A stretch of DNA of 33,756 nt from contig JAITMV010000243.1 of NCBI GenBank assembly GCA_031277295.1, forward strand, positions 1 to 33,756. The letters are read 5' to 3'. The notes beneath the pieces are model-generated. The model saw nothing but the letters and a program-made list of their open reading frames with translations, had not been told where the DNA came from and made no database searches. Source of the DNA: Burkholderiaceae bacterium (GTDB lineage: Bacteria > Pseudomonadota > Gammaproteobacteria > Burkholderiales > Burkholderiaceae_C). Of this stretch, positions 11,481 through 30,049 are shown piece by piece. Each line of letters opens with the position of its first letter. Position 1 is the first letter of the stretch. Made by a program: the position numbers and the translations under genes.

Positions 11481-11861
<381 letters not shown>

Positions 11862-13499
11862 TCATGCTCTGAATTTGCTGGCGATAGGATAACGCCAGTC
11901 GCCGCCGAAGCCGCGCCGCGTAACCCGCGTGCCTGGAGCCGATTGTCGGCGCTTGTATTCGCTGGCTTTGAGCAGGCGCGCGACCTGCTCCACGTCGGCT
12001 TGGCCGAAGCCCGCCGCAATCAGTTCGGCGCTGCTGGCGTCGTTTTCGACGTAGCGCTCGATGATCGCGTCCAACACTTCGTAAGGCGGCAGGCTGTCCT
12101 GGTCGGTTTGGTCGGGGCGCAGTTCAGCGCTGGGCGCTCGGGTGATGATGCGCTCGGGGATAGGATTGGCGCCGCTGCCGTATGGGTCGTGCGCGTTGCG
12201 CCAGCGCGCCAGCCTAAACACCGCCGTTTTCAGCACGTCCTTGATCGGCGCAAAGCCGCCGCACATGTCGCCGTACAGTGTGCAGTAGCCGGTGGCGTAT
12301 TCGCTTTTGTTGCCGGTGGTCAGCAGCAAGTGGCCGTGCTTGTTGGACAGCGCCATCAACAGTACGCCGCGGATGCGGGCTTGCAGGTTTTCTTCCGTCG
12401 CGTCCTCGGTCTTGCCGCCGAACAAGGGGTGAAGCGACTGCCGCAAGCGCTCGAACAGCGGCTGGATGTCGATATCGTCCAGCCGCACACCGAGCCGCCG
12501 CGCCATGTCGCGCGCATCCTCCAGGCTGATGGCGGCGGTGTAGGGGCTGGGCATCGTTACCGTGCTGACGCGCTCGCGGCCCAGCGCATCGACGGCCAGG
12601 GCCAACACCAGCGCCGAATCGATACCGCCCGACAGGCCCAGCACGGCGGACTGAAAGCCGCTCTTGCCGGCGTAGTCGCGCAGGCCCATGACCAGCGCGT
12701 CCCACAGGTCGGCGTCGGCCTCGCGCGTGGGCGCTATGTCGGCGGCCAGCCGCAAAGCCGCGCCAGCGCGCGTCACGCCGATCACCGCCAACTGCTCGGC
12801 AAAGCTGGGCGCGCGCCCGACCAGCCGCCCGTCAGCAGCGACGGCAAACGAGCGGCCCGCAAACACCACCTCGTCCTGCCCGCCAACCGGGCAGACGCAG
12901 ACCAGCGGCAGGCCGCGGGCTCTGGCGCGCTCGGCCATCAGCGCCTCGCGCTCGCTGCCTTGGCCGGCGTAATACGGCGCAGCGCTGATCGCCGCCAGCA
13001 ACTCGGCTCCGGCTTGCCTGGCCTGCTGCATGGAGGGTTCCAACTCAGCGTCCTGGCCGATCAGCAGGCCGACGCGAAAGTCTTGGACTTCAAACACGCC
13101 AGCGCCCTGCCCCGGCGCGAACCAGCGCCGCTCGCCACACATTCGATCATCGAGCGCGCGCTTGGCATACACGCCGATCACGCGCCCGTCGCGGATCACG
13201 CTGGCGGCGTTGCACAAGCCTTGAGCAGCGCTGGCCGGATGGCCGATGACCAGCGTCAGGCCGGCCAACCCGGCTGTCTGGCCGGCAATCGTTGCCACGG
13301 CTTCATCGCAGGCGACAATGAACGACGGGCGCAGCAGCAAATCGCTGGCAGAGCATCCGCAAATCGACAGTTCTGGGGTCAGCAGCAAGTGCGCGCCTTG
13401 CGCATGTGCGGTACTGGCCGCCCAGGCGATGCGGCGAGCGTTACCGGTGATGTCGCCGACAGTGAAATTCAACTGCGCGACGGCAATTTTGAGAGTCAT
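11862..13499 (-). CDS. nadE: NAD+ synthetase with degenerate glutaminase domain
   Basis: This two-domain enzyme of 545 residues has the architecture of glutamine-dependent NAD+ synthetase, the last step of NAD+ biosynthesis. The C-terminal half is intact: the P-loop LSGGIDSALVLA, PSPYT, TEENLQARIRG, TTGNKSEYATGY and LYGDMCGGFAPIKD. The N-terminal half is a nitrilase-fold glutaminase. Two of its triad residues are visible, Glu43 (TPELS) and Lys113 (YAKRAL), but the nucleophile motif usually reading ICED is IGQD, with Gly148 instead of Cys (codon GGC at 13058-13056). The usual LPNY and VFDE stretch after the lysine is also altered (LDDR, MCGE). The enzyme may therefore depend on free ammonia. 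The ATG at 13499 is chosen over a TTG just upstream. It is followed by glnB and lies only 5 bp from the divergent start of the next gene. Confidence 0.93.
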   Translation of the reverse strand: MTLKIAVAQLNFTVGDITGNARRIAWAASTAHAQGAHLLLTPELSICGCSASDLLLRPSFIVACDEAVATIAGQTAGLAGLTLVIGHPASAAQGLCNAASVIRDGRVIGVYAKRALDDRMCGERRWFAPGQGAGVFEVQDFRVGLLIGQDAELEPSMQQARQAGAELLAAISAAPYYAGQGSEREALMAERARARGLPLVCVCPVGGQDEVVFAGRSFAVAADGRLVGRAPSFAEQLAVIGVTRAGAALRLAADIAPTREADADLWDALVMGLRDYAGKSGFQSAVLGLSGGIDSALVLALAVDALGRERVSTVTMPSPYTAAISLEDARDMARRLGVRLDDIDIQPLFERLRQSLHPLFGGKTEDATEENLQARIRGVLLMALSNKHGHLLLTTGNKSEYATGYCTLYGDMCGGFAPIKDVLKTAVFRLARWRNAHDPYGSGANPIPERIITRAPSAELRPDQTDQDSLPPYEVLDAIIERYVENDASSAELIAAGFGQADVEQVARLLKASEYKRRQSAPGTRVTRRGFGGDWRYPIASKFRA

Positions 13500-13504
13500 C
13501 AACA

Positions 13505-14701
13505 GTGTCTGAAAACCGTTCCAGCAAGCATGGTAACGCCCCGCGCTTGCACGTCGCCGGCTCGCCGTTGGCCGTGGACGCGGCGGACTGGAACGCGCTG
13601 CTGGCTCGCCAGGCCGCGCCCACCCCCTTCATGCGGCACGAATACCTGGCCGCCCTGCACACCAGCGGCAGCGCCGTGCCCGATACCGGCTGGATGCCGC
13701 TGTTCATGCTGCTGCGCCAAGGCAGCGAACTCATCGCCGCCTGCCCGCTGTACCTCAAAAGCCACTCCTACGGTGAGTACGTGTTCGACTGGGCCTGGGC
13801 GCACGCCTACGACCAGCACGGACTGGCCTATTACCCCAAGGCGTTGATCGCCGTGCCCTTTACCCCCGTTCCCGGCTCGCGCTTACTGGCGCGCGACGCG
13901 GCAGCGCGCCGGGCGCTGATTAAAGCCGTTTGCCACTGGTGCCGGGCTGAACGGCTGTCGTCGCTGCACGTGCTGTTCGGCGACGCCGCCGATCAGGCTG
14001 CCTGCGCCGCCGTCGGCTTGATGCAGCGCGATCAGGTTCAGTTCCACTGGCACAACCAGCACCCGGCCCAGGATCGCCCTTTTGCCAGCTTTGACGAATT
14101 TCTGGCCTCACTGACGCAAGACAAGCGCAAAAAAATCCGCCAAGAACGCCGCCGTGTACGCGACGCGGGCGTCACCTTCCGCGCCCGCAATGGAGCCGAC
14201 ATGACGCCTGAAGACTGGGCGTTCTTTTATCGCTGCTACGAACGCACCTACCTGGAACACGCAAACCCGCCCTACCTCACCCCCGCCTTCTTCAACGCCA
14301 TCGCGCGCAGCCAGCCGGGACATTGGACGCTGTTCATTGCCGAGCAAGGCGGCGCCCAGATCGCGTCAAGTCTGATCGCCAGCGCCCAAAACGGGAATGA
14401 AACCGTGGCTTATGGCCGTTATTGGGGCGCGCTCGAACGAGTCGATTGCCTGCACTTCGAGGCTTGCTATTACCAGCCAATCGAATGGTGCATCGCGCGC
14501 GGCGTGACCCGCTTTGAAGGCGGCGCGCAAGGCGAACACAAAATGGCCCGCGCGTTGATGCCAACAACCCCGCACAGCGCCCACTGGCTGGCGCATCCGG
14601 CCTTCGCCGATGCGGTGCAACGCTTTTTAACGCGCGAGAGTGAAGGGATGCAAGACTATCTCGATCAACTGGCCGAGCATTCGCCGTTTCGGCGCCGGTG
14701 A
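13505..14701 (+). CDS. FemAB/GNAT-like acyltransferase family protein (DUF482, PF04339)
   Basis: The 398-residue product belongs to the PF04339 family, which has a double GNAT/FemAB-like fold and is often annotated as a putative acyltransferase. The N-terminal region has PTPFMRHEYLAALHTSGSA and a WMPLFML strand. The centre has TQDKRKKIRQERR and FYRCYERTY, and the C-terminal half has the pattern RYWGALE, HFEACYYQPIEWCI and FEGGAQGEHKMARAL. No signal peptide or membrane segment is seen. The enzymatic activity is not established for the family. The start is taken as GTG at 13505, with GAGAG about 11 bp upstream; no ATG exists before the conserved region. That start leaves only 5 bp to the nadE start codon on the opposite strand. 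It is convergent with lysS, with 32 bp between them. Confidence 0.8.
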   Translation: MSENRSSKHGNAPRLHVAGSPLAVDAADWNALLARQAAPTPFMRHEYLAALHTSGSAVPDTGWMPLFMLLRQGSELIAACPLYLKSHSYGEYVFDWAWAHAYDQHGLAYYPKALIAVPFTPVPGSRLLARDAAARRALIKAVCHWCRAERLSSLHVLFGDAADQAACAAVGLMQRDQVQFHWHNQHPAQDRPFASFDEFLASLTQDKRKKIRQERRRVRDAGVTFRARNGADMTPEDWAFFYRCYERTYLEHANPPYLTPAFFNAIARSQPGHWTLFIAEQGGAQIASSLIASAQNGNETVAYGRYWGALERVDCLHFEACYYQPIEWCIARGVTRFEGGAQGEHKMARALMPTTPHSAHWLAHPAFADAVQRFLTRESEGMQDYLDQLAEHSPFRRR

Positions 14702-16472: not shown

Positions 16473-17759
16473 GTGCGTGTCGTGAAGGCGTCCACCACGC
16501 TGACACGCGCCACGCTCACGCTGCTGGCCGGCGGCGCGCTGGCGCAACTGGCTCCGTTGCTGCTCGGCCCCTTCATCGCGCGTTTGTTCACGCCCGAGGC
16601 GATGGGGCTGTACACCCAGTTCATCACCGTCGCCGCCGCGCTGGCGGTGGCCGCCAGCCTGCGTTACGAGCAGGCGCTGCCGCTGACGCGCGAGGATCGC
16701 CAAGCGCGCGCGCTGCTGGCGCTGTCGCTGCGGCTGCTGGCGCTGGCGGTGTGCATCAGCGCGCCGCTGGCGTGGGCGCTGCACGCGGCGGGTTGGCTGC
16801 CGCTGCCGGCGCTGCTGCCGCTGGCGGTGCTGACCATCGGTGTGTTGCAGGTGCTGACGCTATGGGCCAACCGCGCGCAATGCTTCAAGGCGCTGGCGGC
16901 CAGCCGCGTGATGCAGTTGGGCGGCGGCGCGGCGCTGCAACTGGCGCTGGGCTGGGCGCTGTGGCAAGGCGTTGCCGCCGGGCGCGAGGCGGCGTGGGCG
17001 CTGGCGCTGGCGCCGCTGCTGGCGCAAGCGCTGGCCTGCCTGTGGCTGCTGCGGCCGGCGCCTGCGGGAGGCTGGCTGGCAGCGCTCGGCGGCGGCGCGG
17101 TTGCGGGCCAAGAAATACGCGCGGCGGCGCGCGATCACAAGGACTTTGCCCTCATCAACACGCCGCACGCCTTTTTAAGCACCTTGCAGGACGCGCTGGC
17201 GGTGGCGCTGCTGGTGGCGTGGTCTGGCGAGGCGGCGGCCGGTTTTTGGGGGCTGGCGCTGCGCTACCTGAAAGCGCCGGCCACGCTGATCGGCGGCGCC
17301 GTGTCGCAGGCGCTGTATCCACGCCTGGCCGCCGCCAGTCCAGACGAGGGACGGCGCATGGTGCGCCAGGTGATGGGACTGCTGGGCATTGCCGGCCTAT
17401 GCCTGATGGCGCTGCTGCTGGCCGCTGGCCCGTGGCTGTTCGAGCATTTGTTCGGCCCGCCGTGGCGCGGCGCGGGCGAACTGGCGCGGGCGCTGGCGCC
17501 GTATATCGCGGCGCATCTGGTGGCGTCGCCGCTGGCGGTGGTGACAATGGCTTGGCGCGCGCAGGGCTGGGCGCTGCGGCTGGCGCTGGTGGGGCAAGCG
17601 GCGTTTATCGGCGCGCTGGCGCTGGGGCTTTGGCGCGGCGGTTTGCTGGGCGGGGCGTGGGCGGTGTCGGCGGTGATGGCGCCGTACTTCGGCTGGTACT
17701 TCTGGCGGCTGGCCCATTGGCGCGACGTTCCCCCACCGCCGCAAGGAGACACGGCATGA
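16473..17759 (+). CDS. Oligosaccharide flippase family membrane protein (Wzx-like)
   Basis: The 428-residue product is a polytopic inner-membrane protein with about 12 hydrophobic segments, in the style of the polysaccharide transport/MOP flippase superfamily. It would move lipid-linked glycan units across the inner membrane. The N-terminus is typical: a helix ending GGALAQLAPLLLGPFIARLF followed by TPEAMGLYTQF and a second helix, then LRYEQALPL with the conserved RYE of such proteins. A mid-protein segment INTPHAFLSTLQD also fits. The GTG at 16473 is preferred because GAGGGGAG lies 3 bp upstream; a second GTG at 16482 is possible. It heads a four-gene glycan cluster and overlaps the next gene by four bases (ATGA). 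The coding is rich in Ala-Leu repeats of GCGCTGGC type. Confidence 0.85.
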   Translation: MRVVKASTTLTRATLTLLAGGALAQLAPLLLGPFIARLFTPEAMGLYTQFITVAAALAVAASLRYEQALPLTREDRQARALLALSLRLLALAVCISAPLAWALHAAGWLPLPALLPLAVLTIGVLQVLTLWANRAQCFKALAASRVMQLGGGAALQLALGWALWQGVAAGREAAWALALAPLLAQALACLWLLRPAPAGGWLAALGGGAVAGQEIRAAARDHKDFALINTPHAFLSTLQDALAVALLVAWSGEAAAGFWGLALRYLKAPATLIGGAVSQALYPRLAAASPDEGRRMVRQVMGLLGIAGLCLMALLLAAGPWLFEHLFGPPWRGAGELARALAPYIAAHLVASPLAVVTMAWRAQGWALRLALVGQAAFIGALALGLWRGGLLGGAWAVSAVMAPYFGWYFWRLAHWRDVPPPPQGDTA

Positions 17760-18358
17760 ATGCCTGGCGCGCCGCCATCAACCGCCTGCGCCGCCGGCTG
17801 TGGCGGCTGCTGTTTTTTCGCATTCTGTTTGGCGAGCGCAGCCGGGGCGCACTGCGGCCGGCGACGCGGCTGTCGCCGACGGTGTGCATCGAGCACGAGG
17901 CCGGGCTGTCGCTGGGCGACGACGTCTTCATCGGCCACTTCTGCTACATCGAAGCTGGCGCGGGTGTGCGCATCGGGCGCGGCACGCAGATCACCAACTT
18001 TGTCAGCATCGTCAGCCACAGCACGCACCGCGCGGCGCGGGTGGCCGGTGGGCTGTCAGGGGCCGCGCTGGAGGCGGCGGTCATCCGCGCGCCGGTAACG
18101 ATAGGCGAACGCTGCTTCATCGGCCCGCACAGCACCATAGAGGCCGGCGCGACGCTCGGCCACGGTACGCTGGTAGCCGCGCACAGCCGCGTGCGCGGCG
18201 CGCATCCCGACTTTGCCGTGCTGGCCGGCAACCCGGCGCAAGTCGTCGGCGACACGCGCGAGGCCGACCAACGCTGGCTGGCCGATCACCCCGCGCTGCT
18301 GGCCGATTACCAGCGCTGGCGCGCGGCCATCGCGTCGGATCAAGGGAGCGCAACTTGA
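17756..18358 (+). CDS. Left-handed beta-helix (hexapeptide) acyltransferase
   Basis: The 200-residue product has an amphipathic, arginine-rich N-terminus (RRRLWRLLFFRILF) followed by hexapeptide-repeat coils from about residue 45 to 155. Examples are LSLGDDVFIGHFCYIEAGA, VRIGRGTQI, VTIGERCFIGPHSTIEAGA and TLGHGTLV, ending in the family-typical LAGNPAQVV. This is the fold of serine or sugar O-acetyltransferases such as the CysE/NodL/WbbJ type. In this cluster it probably adds acetyl groups to a surface glycan. The conserved His in SHSTH is a catalytic candidate. The start ATG at 17756 overlaps the flippase stop as ATGA and has AAGGAG upstream, so translation is coupled. Confidence 0.88.
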   Translation: MNAWRAAINRLRRRLWRLLFFRILFGERSRGALRPATRLSPTVCIEHEAGLSLGDDVFIGHFCYIEAGAGVRIGRGTQITNFVSIVSHSTHRAARVAGGLSGAALEAAVIRAPVTIGERCFIGPHSTIEAGATLGHGTLVAAHSRVRGAHPDFAVLAGNPAQVVGDTREADQRWLADHPALLADYQRWRAAIASDQGSAT

Positions 18359-19422
18359 CCGCCACCGCGCCGCATCTGTGCCTGCTCGGCGACGCCAGCA
18401 GCGTCCACGTGCAACGTTGGGGGCGCGAAATGCTGGCGCGCGGCTGGCGCGTTTCGCTGGTGACGGCCCGGCCCGCGCCTATTGAGGGCGTCGAACAAAT
18501 CGCGCTGCCGCCGGTGCGCCGCTCCAGCGACTGGCTGTGGCGCGCGGGGGCGGCGCGGCGGGCCATTGAACGCCTGCGGCCGGACATCGTTCACGCGCAC
18601 TACCTCACCTCTTACGGCTACTTGGCCGCACGCGCCGGCCAGCAGCCGCTGGTGATGACCGCCTGGGGCAGCGACCTACTCGTCACGCCTAAGCGCAGCG
18701 CGCCGCTGCGCTGGCTGACCGCATGGGCGCTGCGCCGCGCCCTACTAATAACAGGCGATTCGGCCGACCTGCTGGCGGCGGCGCGCGCGCTGGCTCCAGA
18801 CGTACCGGCGCGCCTGGTGCATTGGGGCGTCGAGCGCAGCCGCTTCGCGCCCGCGCCGTGGCCGGACAAACCCGCCGCCGAGGCGGTAAGCCTGCGCAGT
18901 TGGGAGCCGAATTACCGCATCAACGCCATCCTGCGCGCCTTCGCCCAAGTGCGCACGCGGCGACCCGAGGCGCGCCTGCATCTGCTCGGCGGTGGCGCTC
19001 AGGAGGCCGCTTTACGCGCGCTGGCAGCCGATCTTGGGCTGCGCGATTCAGTGCAATTCCACGGTCGATTGGACGACGCCGGCATGGCCGCCGTGCTGGC
19101 GCGCTGCAAGCTGTCGATCAGCGTGCCGCACAGCGACGCCACCTCCGTCTCGCTGCTTGAAAGCATGGCCTGCGGACTGGCCGTGATCGCCAGCGATCTG
19201 CCCGCCAATCGCGCCTGGCTGCCCGCCGAGGCGCTGGTACCCCTCAACGACTCAGACGCCTTGGCCGCGCGCTGGCTGGCGCTGCTGAATAACGATGCAC
19301 GGGCCGCCGCATTAGGCGCGCGCAATGCCGAGCGCATCGCCCGCGACGGCGACCGCCGGGTACAGATGGATGCGATGGATCAGCTCTATCGCGAACTGCT
19401 AGGCGGAGGCCAGGCGCATTGA
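18355..19422 (+). CDS. Glycosyltransferase family 4
   Basis: The 355-residue product is a GT-B-fold retaining glycosyltransferase. The acceptor domain has LCLLGDASSVHVQRWGREM and DIVHAHYLTSYGYLA. The donor-binding domain has VHWGVERSRFAP, LHLLGGGAQ and VQFHGRL, then the nucleotide-sugar region PHSDATSVSLLESMACGLAV with the glutamate typical of GT4. No membrane segment is seen, so it acts at the cytoplasmic face. The start is the TTG at 18355, which overlaps the preceding stop as TTGA and has GGGAG about 6 bp upstream. The frame is open far upstream, but that part is a shadow of the acyltransferase. It is tightly coupled to the two preceding genes and convergent with the Uma2 gene, with a 14-bp gap. 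Confidence 0.92.
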   Translation: MTATAPHLCLLGDASSVHVQRWGREMLARGWRVSLVTARPAPIEGVEQIALPPVRRSSDWLWRAGAARRAIERLRPDIVHAHYLTSYGYLAARAGQQPLVMTAWGSDLLVTPKRSAPLRWLTAWALRRALLITGDSADLLAAARALAPDVPARLVHWGVERSRFAPAPWPDKPAAEAVSLRSWEPNYRINAILRAFAQVRTRRPEARLHLLGGGAQEAALRALAADLGLRDSVQFHGRLDDAGMAAVLARCKLSISVPHSDATSVSLLESMACGLAVIASDLPANRAWLPAEALVPLNDSDALAARWLALLNNDARAAALGARNAERIARDGDRRVQMDAMDQLYRELLGGGQAH

Positions 19423-19436
19423 AATCAGAACGGCAA

Positions 19437-20021
19437 TCACGCCTGGAGTGCGCTGGGCACATCATCCACGTCGGCAAACAGCGCGGCAGCGGTGATCGTC
19501 AGATCGACCGAGGCGAATTGCACGTCCGCGCCTTTGCCGAACGAATGCAGCACCCACAAGCCGTCGGCGCCCTTGCGGTACACCTCGGTGCGACGGTCGT
19601 CCAGGTCGATGAAGGCGATTTCGCGCAGCGTCGTAATTTGCCGGTAATGCGCAAACTTGGTCCCTTGATCGTAGGCGGCGGTGCTGGGAGAAAGCACTTC
19701 GACGATCAACGTCGGCTCGCGTTTGACCAATGGGCTTTGACGGTCAACCAGGCTACAAGTGACGATAACGTCTGGATAGAAAAAGCTGCGATCATCGGCA
19801 GTGGCCACCTTCATATCGGTGATGAAAGCACGGCACGGCGTACCCGAGAGGTGCTGACGCAAGGCGATGTAGATATTGCCCGATACAGTAACGTGCCGGT
19901 CCTCGGCACCCGCCATTGCAAACACCTCGCCATCGACAAAATCGTGGCGCTCCGTCTGCCCGACTTCCCAAGCCAGAAATTCCTCTGCCGTCATTGCGGC
20001 CTGCTGTGCGGCGTATCCCAT
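19437..20021 (-). CDS. Uma2 family (DUF820) endonuclease-like protein
   Basis: The 194-residue product matches the Uma2/DUF820 family, which has a PD-(D/E)XK nuclease fold. Visible family motifs are MTAEEFLAWE near the start, RHDFVDGEVFAMAG, a core strand FFYPDVIVTC with the candidate Asp, LIVEVLSPSTAAYDQGTKFAHYR with the candidate Glu, and the C-terminal strand pair. Biological function is unknown; many copies occur in cyanobacteria and other lineages, often alone. The ATG at 20021 with GAGG upstream is preferred over a GTG at 20045. It sits antisense inside a glycan cluster and is less GC-rich than its neighbours, consistent with acquisition by transfer. The family call is firm and any role is open. 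Confidence 0.88.
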   Translation of the reverse strand: MGYAAQQAAMTAEEFLAWEVGQTERHDFVDGEVFAMAGAEDRHVTVSGNIYIALRQHLSGTPCRAFITDMKVATADDRSFFYPDVIVTCSLVDRQSPLVKREPTLIVEVLSPSTAAYDQGTKFAHYRQITTLREIAFIDLDDRRTEVYRKGADGLWVLHSFGKGADVQFASVDLTITAAALFADVDDVPSALQA

Positions 20022-20071
20022 GATGACCTCGTGCGTGGTATCCACAACCCAATTATGCGGGCAACGGCGTC

Positions 20072-21088
20072 ATGACGGCCCGCCTCATCACCCTCATCGC
20101 CCCCTGCCGCAACGAGCGCGCGGCCATCGATGCGTTTTGCGCCTCGGCGCTGGCGCAGCAATTGCCGCCCGGCTGGGCGATGGAGTTGCTCATCGCCGAC
20201 GGCATGAGTGATGACGACACGCGCGAGGCGCTCACCGCGTGGGCGGCGCGCGACGCGCGCTTGCGCATCATCGACAACCCCGGCCGCATCGTCTCCTGCG
20301 GCTTGAACGCGGCGCTGGGCGCGGCGCGCGGCGAAGTGATCGCGCGGCTGGACGTGCACACCGAATTCGCCGCCGATTACGTGGCCGAATGCCTGGCCGC
20401 GCTGGCGCGCACCGGGGCCGACAACGTCGGCGGCCCTTGGGTCGCGCGCGGGCAAAGCGCAATGGGGCGCGCCATCGCGGCGGCGTTTCAGTGCCGCTGG
20501 GTGACTGGCGGCGCGCGCTCGCGCCAACTCGATTACGAGGGGCCGGTCGATACCGTCTATCTCGGCTGCTGGCCGCGCGCCGTGTTCGAGCGCTTTGGCG
20601 GCTTCGACGAAACGCTGGCGCGCAATCAGGACGACGAACACAACCTGCGCCTGCGCCTGGGCGGCGCGCGGCTGTGGCAAAGCGCGCGCATCCACTCCAT
20701 TTATCAACCACGCGAGCGGCTGGCGCAACTGTTCAGCCAGCAACTGCAATACGGCTACTGGCGGCCTTACGTGATGAAAAAGCACGGCCAACCCGGTTCA
20801 CTGCGCCAACTGGTTCCCGCCTTGTTTTTGCTGGCGCTTGTCATCGGCACGCTCGCCCTGCCGTGGTTCGGCTGGCCGTTGGCGGCTTTGCTGTTCTCCT
20901 ATGGCGTGTATCTGGGCGCTGCCTCATGCGCGGCGGCGCGGCAAGCCAGACAGCAAGCTTTGCTGCCGCGGCTGCCGGCCGTCATCGCCGCCTATCACGC
21001 AAGCTATGGGCTGGGCGCATGGCTGGGATTGTTCGATTTACTGCGAAGCCGCCGAGGCGGTGAACAGCATACGCGCCTGACCCGCTGA
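20072..21088 (+). CDS. Glycosyltransferase family 2, ExoA-like
   Basis: The 338-residue product is a GT-A-fold inverting glycosyltransferase with a membrane-anchored C-terminus. The N-terminus has LITLIAPCRNERAAID and IADGMSDDDT, the first acidic motif. RLDVHTEF is the metal-binding D-x-H/D variant seen in ExoA-like enzymes. QDDEHNLRLRL gives the catalytic acidic motif, followed by a QLQYGYWRP element. Two or three hydrophobic helices lie at about residues 248-290 and near 305-325. ExoA-type enzymes extend lipid-linked exopolysaccharide repeat units at the inner membrane; the sugar is not predictable. The ATG at 20072 is preferred. It follows the antisense Uma2 gene and ends 44 bp before the convergent fixH stop. 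Confidence 0.9.
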   Translation: MTARLITLIAPCRNERAAIDAFCASALAQQLPPGWAMELLIADGMSDDDTREALTAWAARDARLRIIDNPGRIVSCGLNAALGAARGEVIARLDVHTEFAADYVAECLAALARTGADNVGGPWVARGQSAMGRAIAAAFQCRWVTGGARSRQLDYEGPVDTVYLGCWPRAVFERFGGFDETLARNQDDEHNLRLRLGGARLWQSARIHSIYQPRERLAQLFSQQLQYGYWRPYVMKKHGQPGSLRQLVPALFLLALVIGTLALPWFGWPLAALLFSYGVYLGAASCAAARQARQQALLPRLPAVIAAYHASYGLGAWLGLFDLLRSRRGGEQHTRLTR

Positions 21089-21507: not shown

Positions 21508-22941
21508 TCACTTGGGAACCATGAAAACGGACTTTTCTTTCACCGCACCGCTGACCGAATGAACATGAAAGTGAATTCCGTGCGAGCCTGGCTTGTCCAC
21601 GCCGTAAGGCACTCGCAGGCGCACCGGAACCCATAGGGACTGCGCGGCGCCGACGGTGGCCTTGCCATCGGGCGTATCGACGATCAGCGTCAGGCCAGCC
21701 AAGCCCTCGGCCGACAGCGTGTAAGTCTGCTGCTGCTCGGTGGCGTTCATGATTTGCAGGCGATAGACGTTTTCGATTTTATTGCCCTCCACGATGCGCG
21801 CCAACGTCGCACGGTCGCGCACGATATCGACCTTGAAGGGCGTGCGCAAGAACAATCCGCTAATCAGCGCCAGCGTGACAATGCCCAAAATCGTCGAGTA
21901 GATCAGCACCCGCGGGCGCAATATCTGGCGCACGATCTGGCGACGGCCCCAGCCCTCAGCCATGGCGTGCTCGGTGGAATAGCGAACCAGGCCGCGCGGA
22001 TAGCCCACTTTGTCCATCACCTCATCGCAGACATCGATGCAGGCCGCGCAACTGATGCATTCGTACTGCAACCCATCGCGGATATCAATGCCGGTCGGGC
22101 AGACCTGCACGCACAGGGTGCAATTGACGCATTCGCCCAAGCCCAGCGCCTTGTAATCGGCCTTTCTGGAGCGCGCGCCGCGCGGTTCGCCGCGTTTGGC
22201 GTCGTAGGTGATGATGAGCGTGTCACGGTCGAACATCGCGCTCTGGAAACGCGCGTAGGGGCACATGTATTTGCACACCTGTTCGCGCATATAACCGGCG
22301 TTGCCGTAGGTAGCAAAGCCATAGAAAAAAGTCCAGAAAATCTCCCAACCGCTGAGCGACCAAGTGGCGACCTGCCCAATCAACTCGCGCATGGGCGTAA
22401 AGTAGCCAACCAAGGTCAGGCCAGTCCACAGCCCAAAGGCGATCCAGACCACCTGCTTGGCCGTCTTGCGCGCGAACTTGGCCATCGACATCGGCGCCGC
22501 GTCCAACCGCATACGAGCCGAGCGATCACCCTCTATCCTGCGTTCAATCCACAGATAAATCTCGGTATAGACGGTCTGCGGACACGCATAACCGCACCAC
22601 TGGCGCCCCGCCACCGCCGTGAACAAAAACAGCATCAGGGCCGAAATGATCAGCACCCCCGTCAGGTAAATCACGTCTTGCGGATACAGCACCAGCCCGA
22701 AAATGTAGAACCGGCGCGCGCCCAAATCGAACAACAGCGCCTGCCGCTCACCCCACTGCACCCACGGCATACCATAGAAAAAAAGCTGGGTGGCAAAGAC
22801 GAAAAACCAACGCCAGCGCGCAAACACGCCCGTGACGCTGCGGGGATAGATTTTTTTCTGTGCCGCGTACAGCGACACCATCTCTTCGCCTTCAGCAGCG
22901 CTGAGGGCACCGGTTTGCTTGGTGGGATTTTTTTGAGTCAC
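21508..22941 (-). CDS. ccoG: Cytochrome c oxidase accessory protein CcoG (RdxA/FixG)
   Basis: CcoG is an inner-membrane polyferredoxin that reduces copper for cbb3 oxidase maturation. The product has several membrane helices in its first 240 residues, with WCGYACPQTVY and CKYMCPYARFQ. A ferredoxin domain follows with two clusters, CVNCTLCVQVCP and CISCAACIDVCD. After a further membrane helix comes the C-terminal immunoglobulin-like FixG domain, rich in beta strands. The start is uncertain. GTG at 22941 (477 residues) is given; an ATG at 22881 would start MVSLYAAQKKIYP, close to the conserved region. The open frame runs to 23001. It is separated from ccoP by an unusually long gap of about 760 bp and presumably has its own promoter. 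Confidence 0.95.
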   Translation of the reverse strand: MTQKNPTKQTGALSAAEGEEMVSLYAAQKKIYPRSVTGVFARWRWFFVFATQLFFYGMPWVQWGERQALLFDLGARRFYIFGLVLYPQDVIYLTGVLIISALMLFLFTAVAGRQWCGYACPQTVYTEIYLWIERRIEGDRSARMRLDAAPMSMAKFARKTAKQVVWIAFGLWTGLTLVGYFTPMRELIGQVATWSLSGWEIFWTFFYGFATYGNAGYMREQVCKYMCPYARFQSAMFDRDTLIITYDAKRGEPRGARSRKADYKALGLGECVNCTLCVQVCPTGIDIRDGLQYECISCAACIDVCDEVMDKVGYPRGLVRYSTEHAMAEGWGRRQIVRQILRPRVLIYSTILGIVTLALISGLFLRTPFKVDIVRDRATLARIVEGNKIENVYRLQIMNATEQQQTYTLSAEGLAGLTLIVDTPDGKATVGAAQSLWVPVRLRVPYGVDKPGSHGIHFHVHSVSGAVKEKSVFMVPK

Positions 22942-23139
22942 TGCAATTAAGACTATTTCTATATAGATGACGGTTAACAGCCCGAGTCTAGTACATATCA
23001 CGTCCCGACCTGTAAATACTTACACGCAAATCCCCCCCTTCACGCCCACGGCCCCAAACGCAAGCTTTGCCAAACCGCGCTAAAACCAGAGGTCTTAGCG
23101 CCTGTTCATGGTCCCCCGCCACATAGACACCCACTGAAA

Positions 23140-23699: not shown

Positions 23700-24629
23700 T
23701 CAGTTGGCGGCAGCAGCCGGTTCACCGCCACCTTTACCCCAAACATAAGCGGCGAGCACCCTGAGCTGTCCCGGCGTAAACTTGCCTTCCCATGCGGGCA
23801 TGACACCTGTTTTGCCGTTGTTGATCTGGTCGATGATATGCGCTTCGGTCGCCGGCCCATGAACGAAGATTCCAGCGGCCAAATTAGCCGAGCCAAGCTC
23901 TTTCATGCCCTTGCCCTCGGGTCCGTGGCAAGCGGCGCAGAGCGCAAATTTCTCGCTCCCTAGCTTGGCACGCACCGGGTCAGCCGGTTTACCGGACAGG
24001 CTCAGCACATAGTTGGCCACGTTACGCACATCTTCAGGCGTACCGACGGCGGCGGCCATCGGCGTCATCACCCCGGTCCGTCCCTGTGTGATGGTAGTCA
24101 GAATGCTGTCCGGCGTGCCGCCCCAATTCCACTGCGTGTCGGTTAGATCGGGAAAGCCCTGAGGATTGGCGCCCCTGGCATCTGAACCGTGGCACTGTGA
24201 GCAGTTGTTCATGAAAAGACGGTCACCGATTGCCATGGCGCCCTGATCTTTCGACAGATCCTCAATGCTCTTGCCCGCAAACGCCTCATAAATCGGCGCT
24301 TCTCTGGCTTCACCTGCGGCGACCTCGCTGTCAAACTGCCCGTGCGACGACCATTTTAACGCGCCGTCATACGAACCAAGACCGGGATACAGGGCCAGAT
24401 AAACGCCCCCGAACAAGCAGGTAATGATAAATAACCCGACCCACCAGCGCGGCAACGGATTGTTCATTTCACGCAGGTCGCCATCCCAGACGTGACCCGT
24501 GCTGTTGTCCTTGGTAGTCATGGCCTGGGTTTTGCCGCTGATCCACAGCAACACCAGGCAGCCCAGGACGCCGACGGTCGTGATGACCGCCACGTAAATG
24601 GACCAGAAATTATTTGTAAAGTCACTCAT
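23700..24629 (-). CDS. ccoP: cbb3-type cytochrome c oxidase diheme subunit III
   Basis: CcoP is the membrane-anchored diheme cytochrome c that passes electrons towards the cbb3 oxidase core. The 309-residue product has an N-terminal membrane helix (about residues 8-30), the FixP-type WDGDLREMNNPLPRWW segment, and a second helix near residues 60-80. Two c-type heme domains follow, with CSQCH and CAACH. Axial methionines are available in VMTPMAA and VMPAWEG. The heme domains lie in the periplasm. The ATG at 24629 has AAGGAAC upstream. It is the last gene of the ccoNOQP unit, 40 bp after ccoQ, with a terminator-like hairpin beyond its stop. Confidence 0.97.
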   Translation of the reverse strand: MSDFTNNFWSIYVAVITTVGVLGCLVLLWISGKTQAMTTKDNSTGHVWDGDLREMNNPLPRWWVGLFIITCLFGGVYLALYPGLGSYDGALKWSSHGQFDSEVAAGEAREAPIYEAFAGKSIEDLSKDQGAMAIGDRLFMNNCSQCHGSDARGANPQGFPDLTDTQWNWGGTPDSILTTITQGRTGVMTPMAAAVGTPEDVRNVANYVLSLSGKPADPVRAKLGSEKFALCAACHGPEGKGMKELGSANLAAGIFVHGPATEAHIIDQINNGKTGVMPAWEGKFTPGQLRVLAAYVWGKGGGEPAAAAN

Positions 24630-25466: not shown

Positions 25467-26903
25467 TCAGGCGTGAGCCGGCGCGACGCTCGGAATTTCA
25501 ACCGGCACGGCGCGCCCAGCCGTCGCGGTTTTGACTGTGTTCCATAGCATGACCAGCATGCCGACCAGGTACAACAAGCCTCCCAGCAAACGCAGCACAT
25601 AGAACGGGAAAGTAGCCTTGACCGATTCGACGAAGGTGTAAGTCAGCGTACCGTCGGCGTTGACGGCCCGCCACATCAAACCCTGCATCACGCCGGCAAT
25701 CCACATCGCGGCAATGTAGATCACAATGCCAATGGTGGCAATCCAGAAGTGCGCCTCAATAGCCTTGACGCTGAACATCTGCTTGCGGCCGAACAAGCGC
25801 GGGATCAGGTAATACATGGAACCCATCGTGATCAGACCCACCCAGCCGAGCGCGCCGGAGTGCACGTGGCCAACCGTCCAGTCGGTGTAGTGCGACAGCG
25901 CGTTGACCGTCTTGATGGACATCATCGGCCCTTCGAACGTGGACATGCCGTAGAACGACAGCGACACGATCAAAAACCGCAGAATCGGGTCGTCGCGCAG
26001 CTTGTACCAAGCGCCCGACAGCGTCATGATGCCGTTGATCATGCCGCCCCAACTCGGCGCCAGCAAAATCAGCGAAAACACCATGCCAAGCGACTGCGCC
26101 CAATCCGGCAAGGCGGTGTAGTGCAAATGGTGTGGGCCAGCCCACATGTAAGTAAATATTAACGCCCAGAAGTGAACGATGGACAGGCGGTAGCTGTAAA
26201 TCGGACGCTCAGCCTGCTTGGGAATGAAGTAATACATCATTCCCAGAAAGCCCGCCGTCAGGAAAAAGCCAACTGCGTTATGCCCGTACCACCACTGCAC
26301 CATGGCGTCTTGCACGCCGGCATAGGCGGAATAGGACATCAGCGGGCCGACCGGCAACTCGGCACTGTTGACGATGTGCAGCAACGCCACGGCCAAAATA
26401 AAACCGCCGTAGAACCAGTTAGCCACGTAAATGTGCTTGACCTTACGCGTGCCCACAGTGCCGAAAAACACCACCGCATACGCTACCCAGACCAAGGCAA
26501 TCAGGATATCGATGGGCCACTCCAGTTCGGCATATTCCTTGCCAGTGGTGAAACCCAGCGGCAAAGAAAGGGCGGCGCAAACAATCACCACCTGCCAGCC
26601 CCAGAACGTGAACGTCGCCAGCCCCTGCGCAAACAGCCGTACCTGACAGGTACGCTGTACGACGTAGTAGGACGTGGCGAACAGCGCGGAGCCGCCGAAC
26701 GCAAAAATCACCGCATTGGTGTGCAGCGGTCGCAATCGACCGTAACTGAGCCAGGGGCCCAAATTCAAATCTGGCCAGGCCAGTTGCGCGGCGACAATTA
26801 CGCCGACCAGCATACCGACCACGCCCCAGACCACAGTCATGATGGCGAACTGTCGGACCACTGTGTCGTTGTATACCGTGGCTTTCGTATTGGCAAATGT
26901 CAT
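25467..26903 (-). CDS. ccoN: cbb3-type cytochrome c oxidase catalytic subunit I
   Basis: CcoN is the heme-copper core subunit that reduces O2 to water with high affinity and pumps protons. The 478-residue product has about 12 membrane helices. Recognisable ligand regions are the low-spin heme His in [12 protein letters not shown], the CuB histidines in [11 protein letters not shown] and [10 protein letters not shown], and the heme ligand pair in [12 protein letters not shown]. The helix with [10 protein letters not shown] holds the tyrosine used by C-type oxidases. The ATG at 26903 is preferred over GTG at 26909 because GAGG lies just upstream. An FNR-type box and a well-spaced -10 hexamer precede it, marking it as the first gene of the ccoNOQP transcript. 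Confidence 0.98.
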
Positions 26904-26931
26904 TTCCACCTCTTCCTGATATGACTACGGC

Positions 26932-27120: not shown

Positions 27121-29466
27121 TCACTCTCCAGCCGCTGCGTCTCGCGAAGACGCCAGACGCAGCGCGTTCAACACCACCAGTAATGAACTGGCGGCCATGC
27201 CCAACCCGGCAGCCCAGGCCGGCATCCAGCCCACAATGGCCAGCGGCACGCCAATGACGTTGTACGCTGCTGCCCATCCCAGATTCTGACGGACGATACG
27301 CATTGTGTCACGCGCTTTGCAACAAGTTTGAAAAATTGTTACAAAACGTTCCGAAAGAACAACAAAATCGGCCCGTGCGCGCGCCAGCGGCACCGCGCGG
27401 CCAAAAGCAAACGATACGTCGGCGCCTGCCAACACCGGGCCGTCATTCAGACCGTCACCGACCATTGCCACGGCTGCGCCAGTCTGCTGCATCTGGCGCA
27501 TGACGTTCAATTTGTCGGCCGGCGAACAGCCGCCGCGCGTGTCCTGAATGCCTGCCAGCCGTCCCACGCGCTCCGCCGCTTGCGGGAGATCGCCCGACAG
27601 CAGCCGGACGTGCATGCCGCTGGACGCCAGCGACTCAACGGTTGAGCGAGCATCGGCACGCAAGTCCTCGCGCAGATAAAAGCTCGCCAGCCAGCCACTG
27701 GAATCGCACAAATAACTGCTCGGGCCTTCGTCCGCCGCCACCTCAGGCAAGCCGCAAAACGCCGCCGAGCCAAGCCGCAACTCGCGCGTATCGCCGATCA
27801 GCGCCGCAACGCCCTGTCCCGCCGTTTCGCGCAAGCCGGTCACCGGAATCGGCGCGGCGGCTTCGCCGCCCTCCTCTATCGCGCCTTGCACGATGGCACG
27901 CGATACCGGATGCAAGCTGCCTTGCGCCAGCGCGGCGGCCAGGTGCAGCGCCTGCGCGCGCGACATGCCGTCGCGCACCTCGAGCCGTTCCAGCACGAAG
28001 GCGTCGCGTGTCAGGGTACCGGTCTTGTCGAACACCATTTCCTTGACGCCAGCCAGCGTTTCCAGCGCCTGAAGACGTCGCACCAAAATGCCCTCGCGCG
28101 CCAGCGCGCCAGCGCTGGCCAGCATGGCCGTCGGCGTGGCCAGCGACAGCGCGCAGGGGCAAGTCACCACCAGGACGGCGACCGCGATCATCAGCGCCCG
28201 ACCCGGATCGGCCTGCCACCACCAGGCGCAGGTCAGCCCGGCAGCCAGCAGCACGAACACCAAAAACGGCTTGGCCAGCCGGTCAGCCAATTGCGCAATA
28301 TGCGGCTTGCTGGTCGAAGCCTGCTCCATCAGCGCTACGATCCGCGCGTAGCGCGTGTCGGCCCCCGCCTGATCGACGCGGACCACAACCGGCGCAATCA
28401 GGTTATGGCTGCCGGCGATCACCGTTTGACCCGCCTCACGCGCCAGCGGCGTCGATTCACCGGTCAGCAGCGCCTCATCGACCGACGTGCCGCCTTCCAA
28501 AATCGCGCCATCGGCGGGAAACACCTCGCCTGGCAAAACGCGGATCACGTCGCCTGCGCGCAGCCGCCGGATCGATACGCGCTGCCAGGCATCGTCTTGC
28601 CCACGCCGCTGGACGCTCTCCGGCAAGCGGTGCATCAACGCCTCCAGCGCGCCGGCAGTGCGGTCGCGCAGGCGCAATTCCAGCCAGCGCCCGGTCAGCA
28701 GGAAGAACACAAACATCGTCAGCGAGTCGAAGTACACCTCGTGGCCGAACACGCCATCCGGCTCGAATGTGCCCAAGCTGCTAACCACGAAAGTAATTAC
28801 CATGCCCAGCGCCACCGGCAAATCCATGCTCACGCGCCGCAGCCGCAAATCGCGCAGCGCGTTGTGAAAAAACGGCTGGCACGAAAACAGCACTACCGGA
28901 ATAGCCAACACCCACTGCGCCCAGCGCAGCAGGTGCACGATGTCCGCCTCGATCTCGCCCGGCGCAGTGAAGTACACCGGTGTGGCGTACATCATGACCT
29001 GCATCATGCACAAGCCGGCCACGCCCAGACGCCACATCATTCGGCGTGTTTCGGCCTGCCGCTGCGCGCTGGCCCCAGCGTCGTGCGCGAGCAGCGGGCG
29101 ATAACCGGCGCGCAGCGCCGCCTGCATCCAGGCTGAAGGCTTGGTCGCCCCTTCGTCCCACACCACCCGGCCGCGGTGGCTGGCGGCATTCACCTCGGCC
29201 TCAAGCACGCCCGGCGTGGCGCGCAACGCCTGCTCAATGGTCACGGCGCAAGCCGCGCAATACATGCCGTCGAAAACCACCGTCGATTCCCAGCGCGCGG
29301 AATCCGAGCCGGGGTGTGAATCGACCGGACGGCTGAACTCCAGCCATTCGTCGCGTTCATCCAACAACTCGAACGCCGCCGCTGCCTCCGATGAGGATGC
29401 GGCCACTGTCCCTGCCGCTTGCGCAACCGGGGCAGGCGATGACGACGGCGCGCTAACAGACTGCAT
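27121..29466 (-). CDS. ccoI: Copper-transporting P1B-type ATPase CcoI (FixI)
   Basis: CcoI is an inner-membrane P-type ATPase that exports copper for cbb3 oxidase assembly. The 781-residue product has an N-terminal heavy-metal domain with CAAC (Cys70, Cys73), then eight membrane helices. The translocation motif is TCPCALSLATPTAM, the phosphorylation site VFDKTGTLTRD, and the hinge motif MVGDGLNDGPVLAGADV. The first 60 residues before the metal domain are Ala/Ser/Pro-rich and then acidic; the CFHCG-type motif common in longer CcoI proteins is not seen. The start is the ATG at 29466. The frame runs open to 29673, but that part is unlike the family and overlaps the divergent promoter region. The ribosome binding site is weak. 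Confidence 0.95.
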   Translation of the reverse strand: MQSVSAPSSSPAPVAQAAGTVAASSSEAAAAFELLDERDEWLEFSRPVDSHPGSDSARWESTVVFDGMYCAACAVTIEQALRATPGVLEAEVNAASHRGRVVWDEGATKPSAWMQAALRAGYRPLLAHDAGASAQRQAETRRMMWRLGVAGLCMMQVMMYATPVYFTAPGEIEADIVHLLRWAQWVLAIPVVLFSCQPFFHNALRDLRLRRVSMDLPVALGMVITFVVSSLGTFEPDGVFGHEVYFDSLTMFVFFLLTGRWLELRLRDRTAGALEALMHRLPESVQRRGQDDAWQRVSIRRLRAGDVIRVLPGEVFPADGAILEGGTSVDEALLTGESTPLAREAGQTVIAGSHNLIAPVVVRVDQAGADTRYARIVALMEQASTSKPHIAQLADRLAKPFLVFVLLAAGLTCAWWWQADPGRALMIAVAVLVVTCPCALSLATPTAMLASAGALAREGILVRRLQALETLAGVKEMVFDKTGTLTRDAFVLERLEVRDGMSRAQALHLAAALAQGSLHPVSRAIVQGAIEEGGEAAAPIPVTGLRETAGQGVAALIGDTRELRLGSAAFCGLPEVAADEGPSSYLCDSSGWLASFYLREDLRADARSTVESLASSGMHVRLLSGDLPQAAERVGRLAGIQDTRGGCSPADKLNVMRQMQQTGAAVAMVGDGLNDGPVLAGADVSFAFGRAVPLARARADFVVLSERFVTIFQTCCKARDTMRIVRQNLGWAAAYNVIGVPLAIVGWMPAWAAGLGMAASSLLVVLNALRLASSRDAAAGE

Positions 29467-29503
29467 ATGCGCCGGGACTCTATCGGCTTTACCCGCAACA
29501 GGC

Positions 29504-29517
29504 TTGATGGCGGTCAA
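29504..29517. promoter_or_regulatory. FNR/ANR-type box between ccoI and uspA
   Basis: TTGATGGCGGTCAA matches the FNR consensus at 9 of 10 positions. For the plus-strand stress protein gene a TAAGCT hexamer at 29539-29544 would put the box near -40.5, close to the class II position. For ccoI the box is only about 44 bp from the start codon, so it would leave almost no leader. The stress protein gene is the more likely target. Confidence 0.6.
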
Positions 29518-29605
29518 TTCTTGAGTGCAAAGCGCAGTTAAGCTATGGTTCGGCGCTCGCAGGCAGCGAGTCCTGTTCAAACATTCATTTTTTGAGGAGA
29601 ACTTC

Positions 29606-30049
29606 ATGTACCAACGCATTCTCGTCGCCACCGACGGCTCCAAACTCTCCAACAAAGCGGTAAAGGACGCCATCGAACTGGCCGCAAGCGTGGGCGCCGA
29701 ACTGATTGCACTGAAGGTAGTGCCGCGCTATCCGCAGAGTTACTTCGAGGGATCGATCCCGCTGTCCTCGGACGACATGGCCCGGGTCGAAAAACAATGG
29801 ACCGACGAGGGGCAGCAAGTGGTCGAGGCAGTCAAGAATGCCGGAGCCGCCAAGGACGTCAAGGTCAAGCCCATCATCGCCAGATCGGACGTGGTGTCCG
29901 ACGCGCTGATCGCCGCGGCAAAAAAGCACAAGGCCGACCTGATCGTCATGGCGTCCCACGGACGCAAGGGCGTCAAGCGGCTGCTGCTCGGCAGCGAAAC
30001 CCAACAGGTGCTGACGCACTCGCAAATTCCGGTGCTGGTGCTGCGCTAA
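29606..30049 (+). CDS. Universal stress protein, UspA family (second copy)
   Basis: This is a 147-residue single-domain universal stress protein beginning YQRILVATDGSKLSNKAV after the start methionine. The nucleotide-binding loop reads ASHG-x9-GS, with Ala in place of the usual first Gly, and the protein ends with a QIPVLVLR strand. ATP binding is likely. The ATG at 29606 has GAGGAG at 29594-29599; the frame is open to 29525 without homology. It is divergent from ccoI, with an FNR-type box in the gap, which suggests induction at low oxygen together with the cbb3 oxidase. It differs clearly in sequence from the copy at 7429. Confidence 0.93.
   Translation: MYQRILVATDGSKLSNKAVKDAIELAASVGAELIALKVVPRYPQSYFEGSIPLSSDDMARVEKQWTDEGQQVVEAVKNAGAAKDVKVKPIIARSDVVSDALIAAAKKHKADLIVMASHGRKGVKRLLLGSETQQVLTHSQIPVLVLR

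Follow-up and report, generated by a model that had tools for sequence, protein, structure and literature searches.

The triad of glutamine-dependent NAD+ synthetase (NadE) comprises Cys, Glu and Lys, in addition to a second Glu (PMC6946656), and two-domain enzymes are taken as glutamine-dependent from their architecture (PMC3376133, PMC7196632). Ammonium can replace glutamine as the nitrogen donor of the dimeric NadE2-Gln enzymes (PMC7196632), and the single-domain NADS uses ammonia in vivo (PMC3376133). The binding of PII relieves the NAD+ feedback of dimeric NadE2-Gln enzymes other than the one described here; 1300 PII-nadE islands have been published, in which the adjacency of glnB is frequent and not obligatory (PMC7196632). 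The mosaic of single- and two-domain forms in the NADS family has been explained by transfer and gene loss, and the scenario as given in the available part of that paper does not list a reversion to ammonia by way of a dead active site (PMC3376133). Our literature search, with most subscription papers outside its scope, found no report of a two-domain NadE without the Cys.

Here we describe such a NadE, encoded in the window, namely the whole 33,756-nucleotide stretch of DNA that was analysed (Table 1). The reading frame, taken as the translation of 11862-13499 on the minus strand, is open and starts with ATG at 13499. The protein matches NF010588 (NAD+ synthase, two-domain type) over its full length (residues 2-544) at 699 bits against a cut-off of 479 and has conserved synthetase motifs, both of which identify it as a two-domain NAD synthetase by descent. 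With 50.8 bits against NF001979 (single-domain, E. coli type; cut-off 250) and a PF00795 domain present, it falls outside the ammonia-dependent single-domain class. The best match among solved structures is the glutamine-dependent NAD+ synthetase 4f4h (E 1.8e-169), which we take to be the Burkholderia thailandensis enzyme. Divergent from nadE, a FemAB-like protein (13505-14701; PF04339, E 5.9e-137) has an open frame that starts a few bases from the nadE start. Elsewhere, the window holds an ordinary cbb3-type cytochrome oxidase cluster (ccoN 25467-26909, ccoP 23700-24629, ccoG 21508-23001 and a heavy-metal P-type ATPase 27121-29673), and in the stretch 16473-21088 weak family matches point to a flippase-like gene and two glycosyltransferase-like ones, beside a gene without a match, perhaps a surface polysaccharide region.

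Table 1. Features of the nadE-glnB locus in window coordinates
Feature	Position	Strand	Basis and remarks
nadE, two-domain NAD+ synthetase with a glutaminase domain lacking the catalytic Cys, 545 aa	11862..13499	-	translation, NF010588, Pfam, alignment
N-terminal nitrilase-type (glutaminase) domain, residues 1-245	12765..13499	-	PF00795 residues 4-245, E 3.2e-24; 31/40 near-invariant residues kept
C-terminal NAD synthetase domain, residues 262-545	11865..12716	-	PF02540 residues 266-519, E 1.1e-72; 79/79 near-invariant residues kept
Glu43, catalytic Glu, kept	13371..13373	-	alignment
Lys113, catalytic Lys, kept	13161..13163	-	alignment
Loop after Lys113, LDDRMCGE instead of the LPNYxVFDE of relatives	13131..13154	-	alignment; of the near-invariant residues only the first Leu and the last Glu kept
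Gly148 (GGC) at the catalytic Cys position	13056..13058	-	translation, alignment
glnB, PII signal protein, 42 bases downstream of nadE	11481..11819	-	PF00543; NF008111 199.7 bits vs cut-off 202

An earlier note on this DNA had claimed that Gly148 replaces the catalytic Cys, that the next residue is changed from Glu to Gln, that the LPNY and VFDE stretch after Lys113 reads LDDR and MCGE, and that the synthetase half keeps its motifs. The alignment agrees. Near-invariant columns were defined as those with one residue in at least 97% of 131 aligned triad-bearing rows, a few of which are duplicates; in these 131 rows the column of Gly148 is Cys. Position 149 is Gln in the window NadE and Glu in close relatives, and the loop after Lys113 (LDD-RMCGE) is one residue shorter than LPNYxVFDE. 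Nine of the 40 near-invariant positions of the glutaminase half differ (Y49C, P117D, F121C, D122G, C148G, W152E, N172S, S174A and K180Q), against none of the 79 in the synthetase half. The glutaminase half keeps 78% of its near-invariant positions, compared to 82.5-100% (median 100%) in the triad-bearing rows. The Cys-Glu-Lys triad is therefore incomplete, with Glu43 and Lys113 present, as is the second Glu (E123), and Gly148 in place of the Cys. Having lost its nucleophilic Cys along with part of the glutamine pocket, the window NadE should not hydrolyse glutamine, and the alignments support the suggestion of the note that this is probably a glutaminase-dead form.

We consider it probable that the window encodes a pseudo-glutaminase NadE which is fed by free ammonia and keeps its dead domain as a scaffold, the loss having been repeated in ammonia-replete lineages. 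This NadE, the sole one found, would supply the cell with the essential cofactor NAD by joining free ammonia to deamido-NAD, and a Cys-less NadE should still work with ammonia, since NadE2-Gln accepts ammonium and single-domain NADS uses ammonia. The nitrilase-type domain, deprived of its nucleophile and of part of its pocket and thus probably inert towards glutamine, may be retained for its fold, as a scaffold that perhaps contributes to the dimer or to a target surface for PII (GlnB). The lineages concerned would be living with plentiful ammonia, many having either no GOGAT or no AmtB that could be found, together with GDH.

The catalytic Cys is absent from 17 distinct fetched NadE loci, the window included, a tally from selected genomes that is not a family frequency, since it leaves aside many genomes whose matches are very weak (E about 1e-8 to 1e-18), as well as six survey genomes with no match (G075, G120, G189, G316, G334 and G392). 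L111 (the same gene as L089) and L139 (which duplicates L133 within its genome) were excluded from it. The reading frames of the 17 loci span both domains, that of L017 ending ~20 residues short of the window protein. The 16 loci besides the window keep 50-78% of the 40 glutaminase positions and 94-100% of the 79 synthetase positions. Within the window's genus (29 genomes including its own), the Cys is gone in 7/30 fetched loci (L001, L017, L020, L023, L026, L027 and L028), counted without four further matches in G013, G015, G017 and G026. The best 80 named loci of a scan contain two Cys-less ones, from Melaminivora alkalimesophila CY1 (L089) and Comamonadaceae bacterium CD01 (L074).

The remaining cases came from a family survey, in which 399 genomes were compared with an intact glutaminase query, a procedure that flags strongly decayed cases only. 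Outside the window's genus, 54 survey genomes were followed up: 28 with weak or missing matches, then 26 made up of genomes with missing GOGAT and 15 hand-picked controls with GOGAT. The 28 yielded Cys-less loci in genus g95 (L114 and L115), in genus g86 (L119 and L123), which holds Lampropedia aestuarii (L094 and L122, of identical sequence), and in genus g72 (L131, L133, L134 and L135), the latter belonging to a NadE subfamily that is 40-42% identical to the window's. In g72, to which M. alkalimesophila belongs, the dead forms fall into two NadE subfamilies (L089/L111 and L131-L135). The triad is intact in 15/15 control genomes. Five of the 54 genomes have an unreadable Cys position (G046, G304, G343, G367 and G421), and three possess only a single-domain NadE (G122, G222 and G414). 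Three of the five sampled genomes of g95 carry only the single-domain E. coli-type NadE, and the other two the dead two-domain form, one of which (G357) has a second, weak NadE-like match. A decayed glutaminase piece in G387 (genus g26), with neither Glu nor Cys at the expected motifs, lies before a run of N and stands outside the 17.

A tree of the synthetase half (130 rows) requires at least six changes of the Cys state, four of them forced by well-supported branches, and a careful tree of the window's NadE subfamily (55 rows) needs five changes, all forced by starred branches. Related bacteria appear to have lost the glutaminase Cys on several independent occasions. Our own cautious tally gives a minimum of about five losses: in the window's genus, in the group of Melaminivora, CD01 and g95, in Lampropedia, in the second subfamily (g72) and in g26. 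A single origin of the 13 dead rows of the subfamily was rejected (p-AU 0.000565, with a tool warning on the two long rows L026 and L060), and a single origin of the seven dead rows within the window's genus was not (p-AU 0.21).

The Cys is replaced by Gly in 14/17 loci, by Asp in two (L027 and L028) and, by alignment, by Glu in one (L026). At the nucleophile of nitrilases, Gly would be the residue that best relaxes the strained turn. The chance of at least five Gly in seven losses is ~0.001, assuming that number of losses, that one in seven of the amino-acid changes open to a single base change is to Gly and that all are equally likely. In six loci from two NadE subfamilies (L114, L115, L131, L133, L134 and L135), the catalytic Glu is changed to Gln together with Lys to Arg.

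To describe selection on the dead domain, dN/dS was calculated by NG86 on pairs of our choosing, some of which are not independent and some of which give rough values owing to high dS; the mixed pair L023/L024 was put in neither group. The dead domain shows a dN/dS of 0.12-0.57 in eight dead/dead pairs, the synthetase domain of the same pairs 0.11-0.37, and the glutaminase domain of 13 intact/intact pairs 0.02-0.30. The dN ratio of the glutaminase to the synthetase domain ranges from 0.5 to 3.2 in dead pairs and from 0.9 to 3.3 in intact ones, so that the two overlap. The dead glutaminase domain is still under selection, relaxed at most and not free to drift. A domain that is merely decaying, under selection relaxed by a move to ammonia-rich places and with no role beyond folding or dimerisation, would fit the dN/dS values, which reach higher than those of the working domain, as well as the Lys113 loops of L001, L017 and L020, which lack residues; it sits less well with the persistence of long open frames, a dN/dS below 1 (0.12 in L114/L115), the overlapping dN ratios, the predominance of Gly among the replacements and the presence of glnB within 600 bases in 12/13 dead loci of the window's subfamily. 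We give mere decay slightly less than an even chance. It shares the ammonia part with the ammonia-fed scaffold that we prefer and differs only on a regulatory role, and our confidences in the two overlap.

The regulatory role leads to glnB, whose position just downstream of nadE had been put forward as a hint of a nitrogen link. The adjacency itself holds, with a gap of 42 bases on the same strand as in PII-regulated NadE, but it is nothing special, being shared by most NadE loci with a hit and by the published islands (PMC7196632). A glnB gene lies at most 600 bases downstream in 110/141 loci with a NadE hit, a few of which are duplicates and some of which have little downstream sequence. It is found just downstream in 12/17 dead loci, the one exception in the window's subfamily being L023, and is not within about 1500 bases downstream in L131, L133, L134 and L135. 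The glnB neighbour of the window nadE is thus ordinary, and since most intact relatives have glnB equally close, its adjacency is no evidence by itself. It would be compatible with PII control of an ammonia-fed NadE; control exerted through the dead glutaminase domain is speculative. We entertain only tentatively, and think rather doubtful, the fuller proposal that, in several lineages of this betaproteobacterial family, the NadE glutaminase has repeatedly been converted, by way of the same replacements (Cys to Gly, and in two NadE subfamilies Glu to Gln and Lys to Arg as well), to a pseudo-glutaminase kept for regulation, with PII and NAD+ feedback acting through the dead domain and free ammonia as the donor.

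The window's genome is a draft of 279 contigs with 90.8% completeness and 4.2% estimated contamination, and absences from it are provisional because of that completeness. No GOGAT and no AmtB were found in this draft, which has one GDH. We compared a chosen set of 41 genomes (29 of the window's genus and 12 from genera g72, g95 and g86), taking a PF01645 match above 400 bits as true GOGAT. GOGAT is missing in 8/16 genomes with a dead NadE (G000, G011, G026, G113, G281, G295, G345 and G402) and in 1/25 with an intact Cys (G003), the NadE read being a fragment in two of the 25 (G013 and G022). It is present despite a dead NadE in G007, G008, G009, G021 (partial match), G099, G204, G288 and G357. 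An ammonium transporter match is lacking in 8/16 dead-NadE genomes versus 5/25 intact ones, and GDH occurs in 39/41, the misses being G009 (62% complete) and G024 (84%).

Across the family, the GOGAT central domain (PF04898) is missing in 18/399 genomes, and in 7/350 of those with at least 90% completeness and at most 5% contamination. NadE is dead in six of the seven (G000, G113, G281, G295, G345 and G402) and has an intact triad in one (G364). The other 11, of lower quality, comprise six with an intact triad (G036, G067, G070, G129, G274 and G377), the decayed G387, and four that gave no NadE or a fragment (G304, G343, G367 and G421). Among 63 rows from genomes at least 80% complete, with both G017 loci also dropped, there are eight dead without GOGAT, seven dead with it, four intact without it and 44 intact with it (Fisher p 0.0005, inflated by related rows). 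An independent-pairs sign test of this link was not significant, with three pairs on well-supported branches and six on all branches. Because related rows inflate the table and this test was not significant, the link between a dead NadE and missing GOGAT is suggestive and not phylogenetically proven. Its exceptions are G003 of the window's genus, G364 and the six lower-quality genomes, which have an intact triad and no GOGAT, and also the eight dead-NadE genomes in which GOGAT is kept.

Several individual genomes add detail on nitrogen genes. G003 (L024) has an intact triad and no GOGAT or AmtB that could be found, and its tree neighbour L023 (G007) has GOGAT, a dead NadE and no AmtB, a contrast that reflects either a lag between losses or a counter-example. 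In G357, AmtB, GOGAT and the second NadE-like match lie within ~11 kb (G357:C1 1008380-1019393); in the related G295, no true GOGAT was found and AmtB is present only as the other type, as if a block had been lost or gained. G407 (genus g86) has six AmtB matches, three of them fragments that share a contig, one interrupted by an internal stop, and may hold a broken extra copy.

The earlier note had named free ammonia or a separate partner as the nitrogen source. The first part gains from the draft genome, in which no second NadE was found by protein search or PF02540, no GOGAT and no AmtB were found, and GDH is present; the second part loses, no NadE-type partner glutaminase having been found there. 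Two other PF02540 matches are weak (29.8 and 21.5 bits), one in the GuaA frame on contig C211 and the other on C118. A separate glutaminase subunit or another protein that hands ammonia to the window NadE, leaving glutamine as the real donor, has a precedent in the two-subunit NADS of Thermus thermophilus (PMC3376133), and the intact synthetase half and the 90.8% completeness leave it some space. There are only three CN-hydrolase matches in the genome, however, namely NadE, a Nit/omega-amidase-like protein and Lnt, the two besides NadE being best matched by other families, and a partner subunit would find its place already taken by the dead domain, which is retained. The window NadE does not fit the two-subunit (type C/R) NADS, and we judge such a partner improbable. 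The loss looks specific to NadE, because all five class-I GATase matches in the genome (TrpG/PabA-type, CarA, GuaA, HisH and one more) keep their Cys motif, and a general loss of glutaminases was rejected on the same 5/5 count.

The glutaminase might instead still be active with another nucleophile, or the domain might hydrolyse a different amide, which would accord with the retention of Glu43, Lys113 and E123, with the constraint seen in dN/dS and with the 5/17 dead loci that keep both catalytic Glu and Lys. In the other 12/17, however, the Glu or the Lys is lost too, and in the window NadE the pocket residues W152, N172, S174 and K180 are changed, which makes continued hydrolysis very improbable. 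Sequencing error, chimera or contamination, conceivable in a draft of this many contigs and this estimated contamination, can practically be dismissed and was rejected, because the same Cys loss occurs in 16 further distinct loci, including four in single-contig genomes (L114, L115, L131 and L135) and the named strain record L089, and because, as the earlier note had argued, the linked changes, nine in number, are confined to one domain of an open frame, with none at the near-invariant positions of the other.

If the fuller proposal of a pseudo-glutaminase kept for regulation is true, the NadE active site would mark, at the genome level, a nitrogen economy that is replete in ammonia and often without GOGAT, and the enzyme would be a bacterial counterpart of CPS1 and exemplify a route back to ammonia use that is absent from the NADS-family scenario as published in the available text (PMC3376133). 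Judged from the sequences, glutamine dependence assumed from two-domain architecture is very likely wrong for whole lineages. Because the loss recurs, nature has provided replicates in which to study under what conditions a cell can make do with free ammonia as donor for biosynthesis, what purpose a dead glutaminase domain serves, and whether the action of PII on NadE is separable from glutaminase activity.

Compared to the dimeric NadE2-Gln enzymes (NF010588, 4f4h, and NadE2 of Herbaspirillum and Azospirillum), the window NadE is alike in domain order, length and synthetase motifs, and like many of them has a glnB neighbour, but it lacks the catalytic Cys and part of the glutamine pocket and so should not use glutamine. 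With the single-domain ammonia-dependent NadE (E. coli type, NF001979) it shares free ammonia as the predicted donor; that enzyme belongs to a different NadE branch and has no glutaminase domain, whereas the window NadE keeps a dead one. In the two-subunit NADS of Thermus thermophilus, the glutaminase function is likewise apart from the synthetase chain (PMC3376133), but resides in a working separate glutaminase, of which none was found in the window's draft genome. The closest functional parallel that we draw is the vertebrate carbamoyl phosphate synthetase 1 (human CPS1), an amidotransferase which has Ser294 in place of the catalytic Cys of its glutaminase-like domain, uses free ammonia and retains the domain (PMC4655335). 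CPS1 differs in being eukaryotic, activated by N-acetylglutamate and built on another glutaminase type with a Cys-His-Glu triad, and is thus a functional parallel of the window NadE and not a relative.
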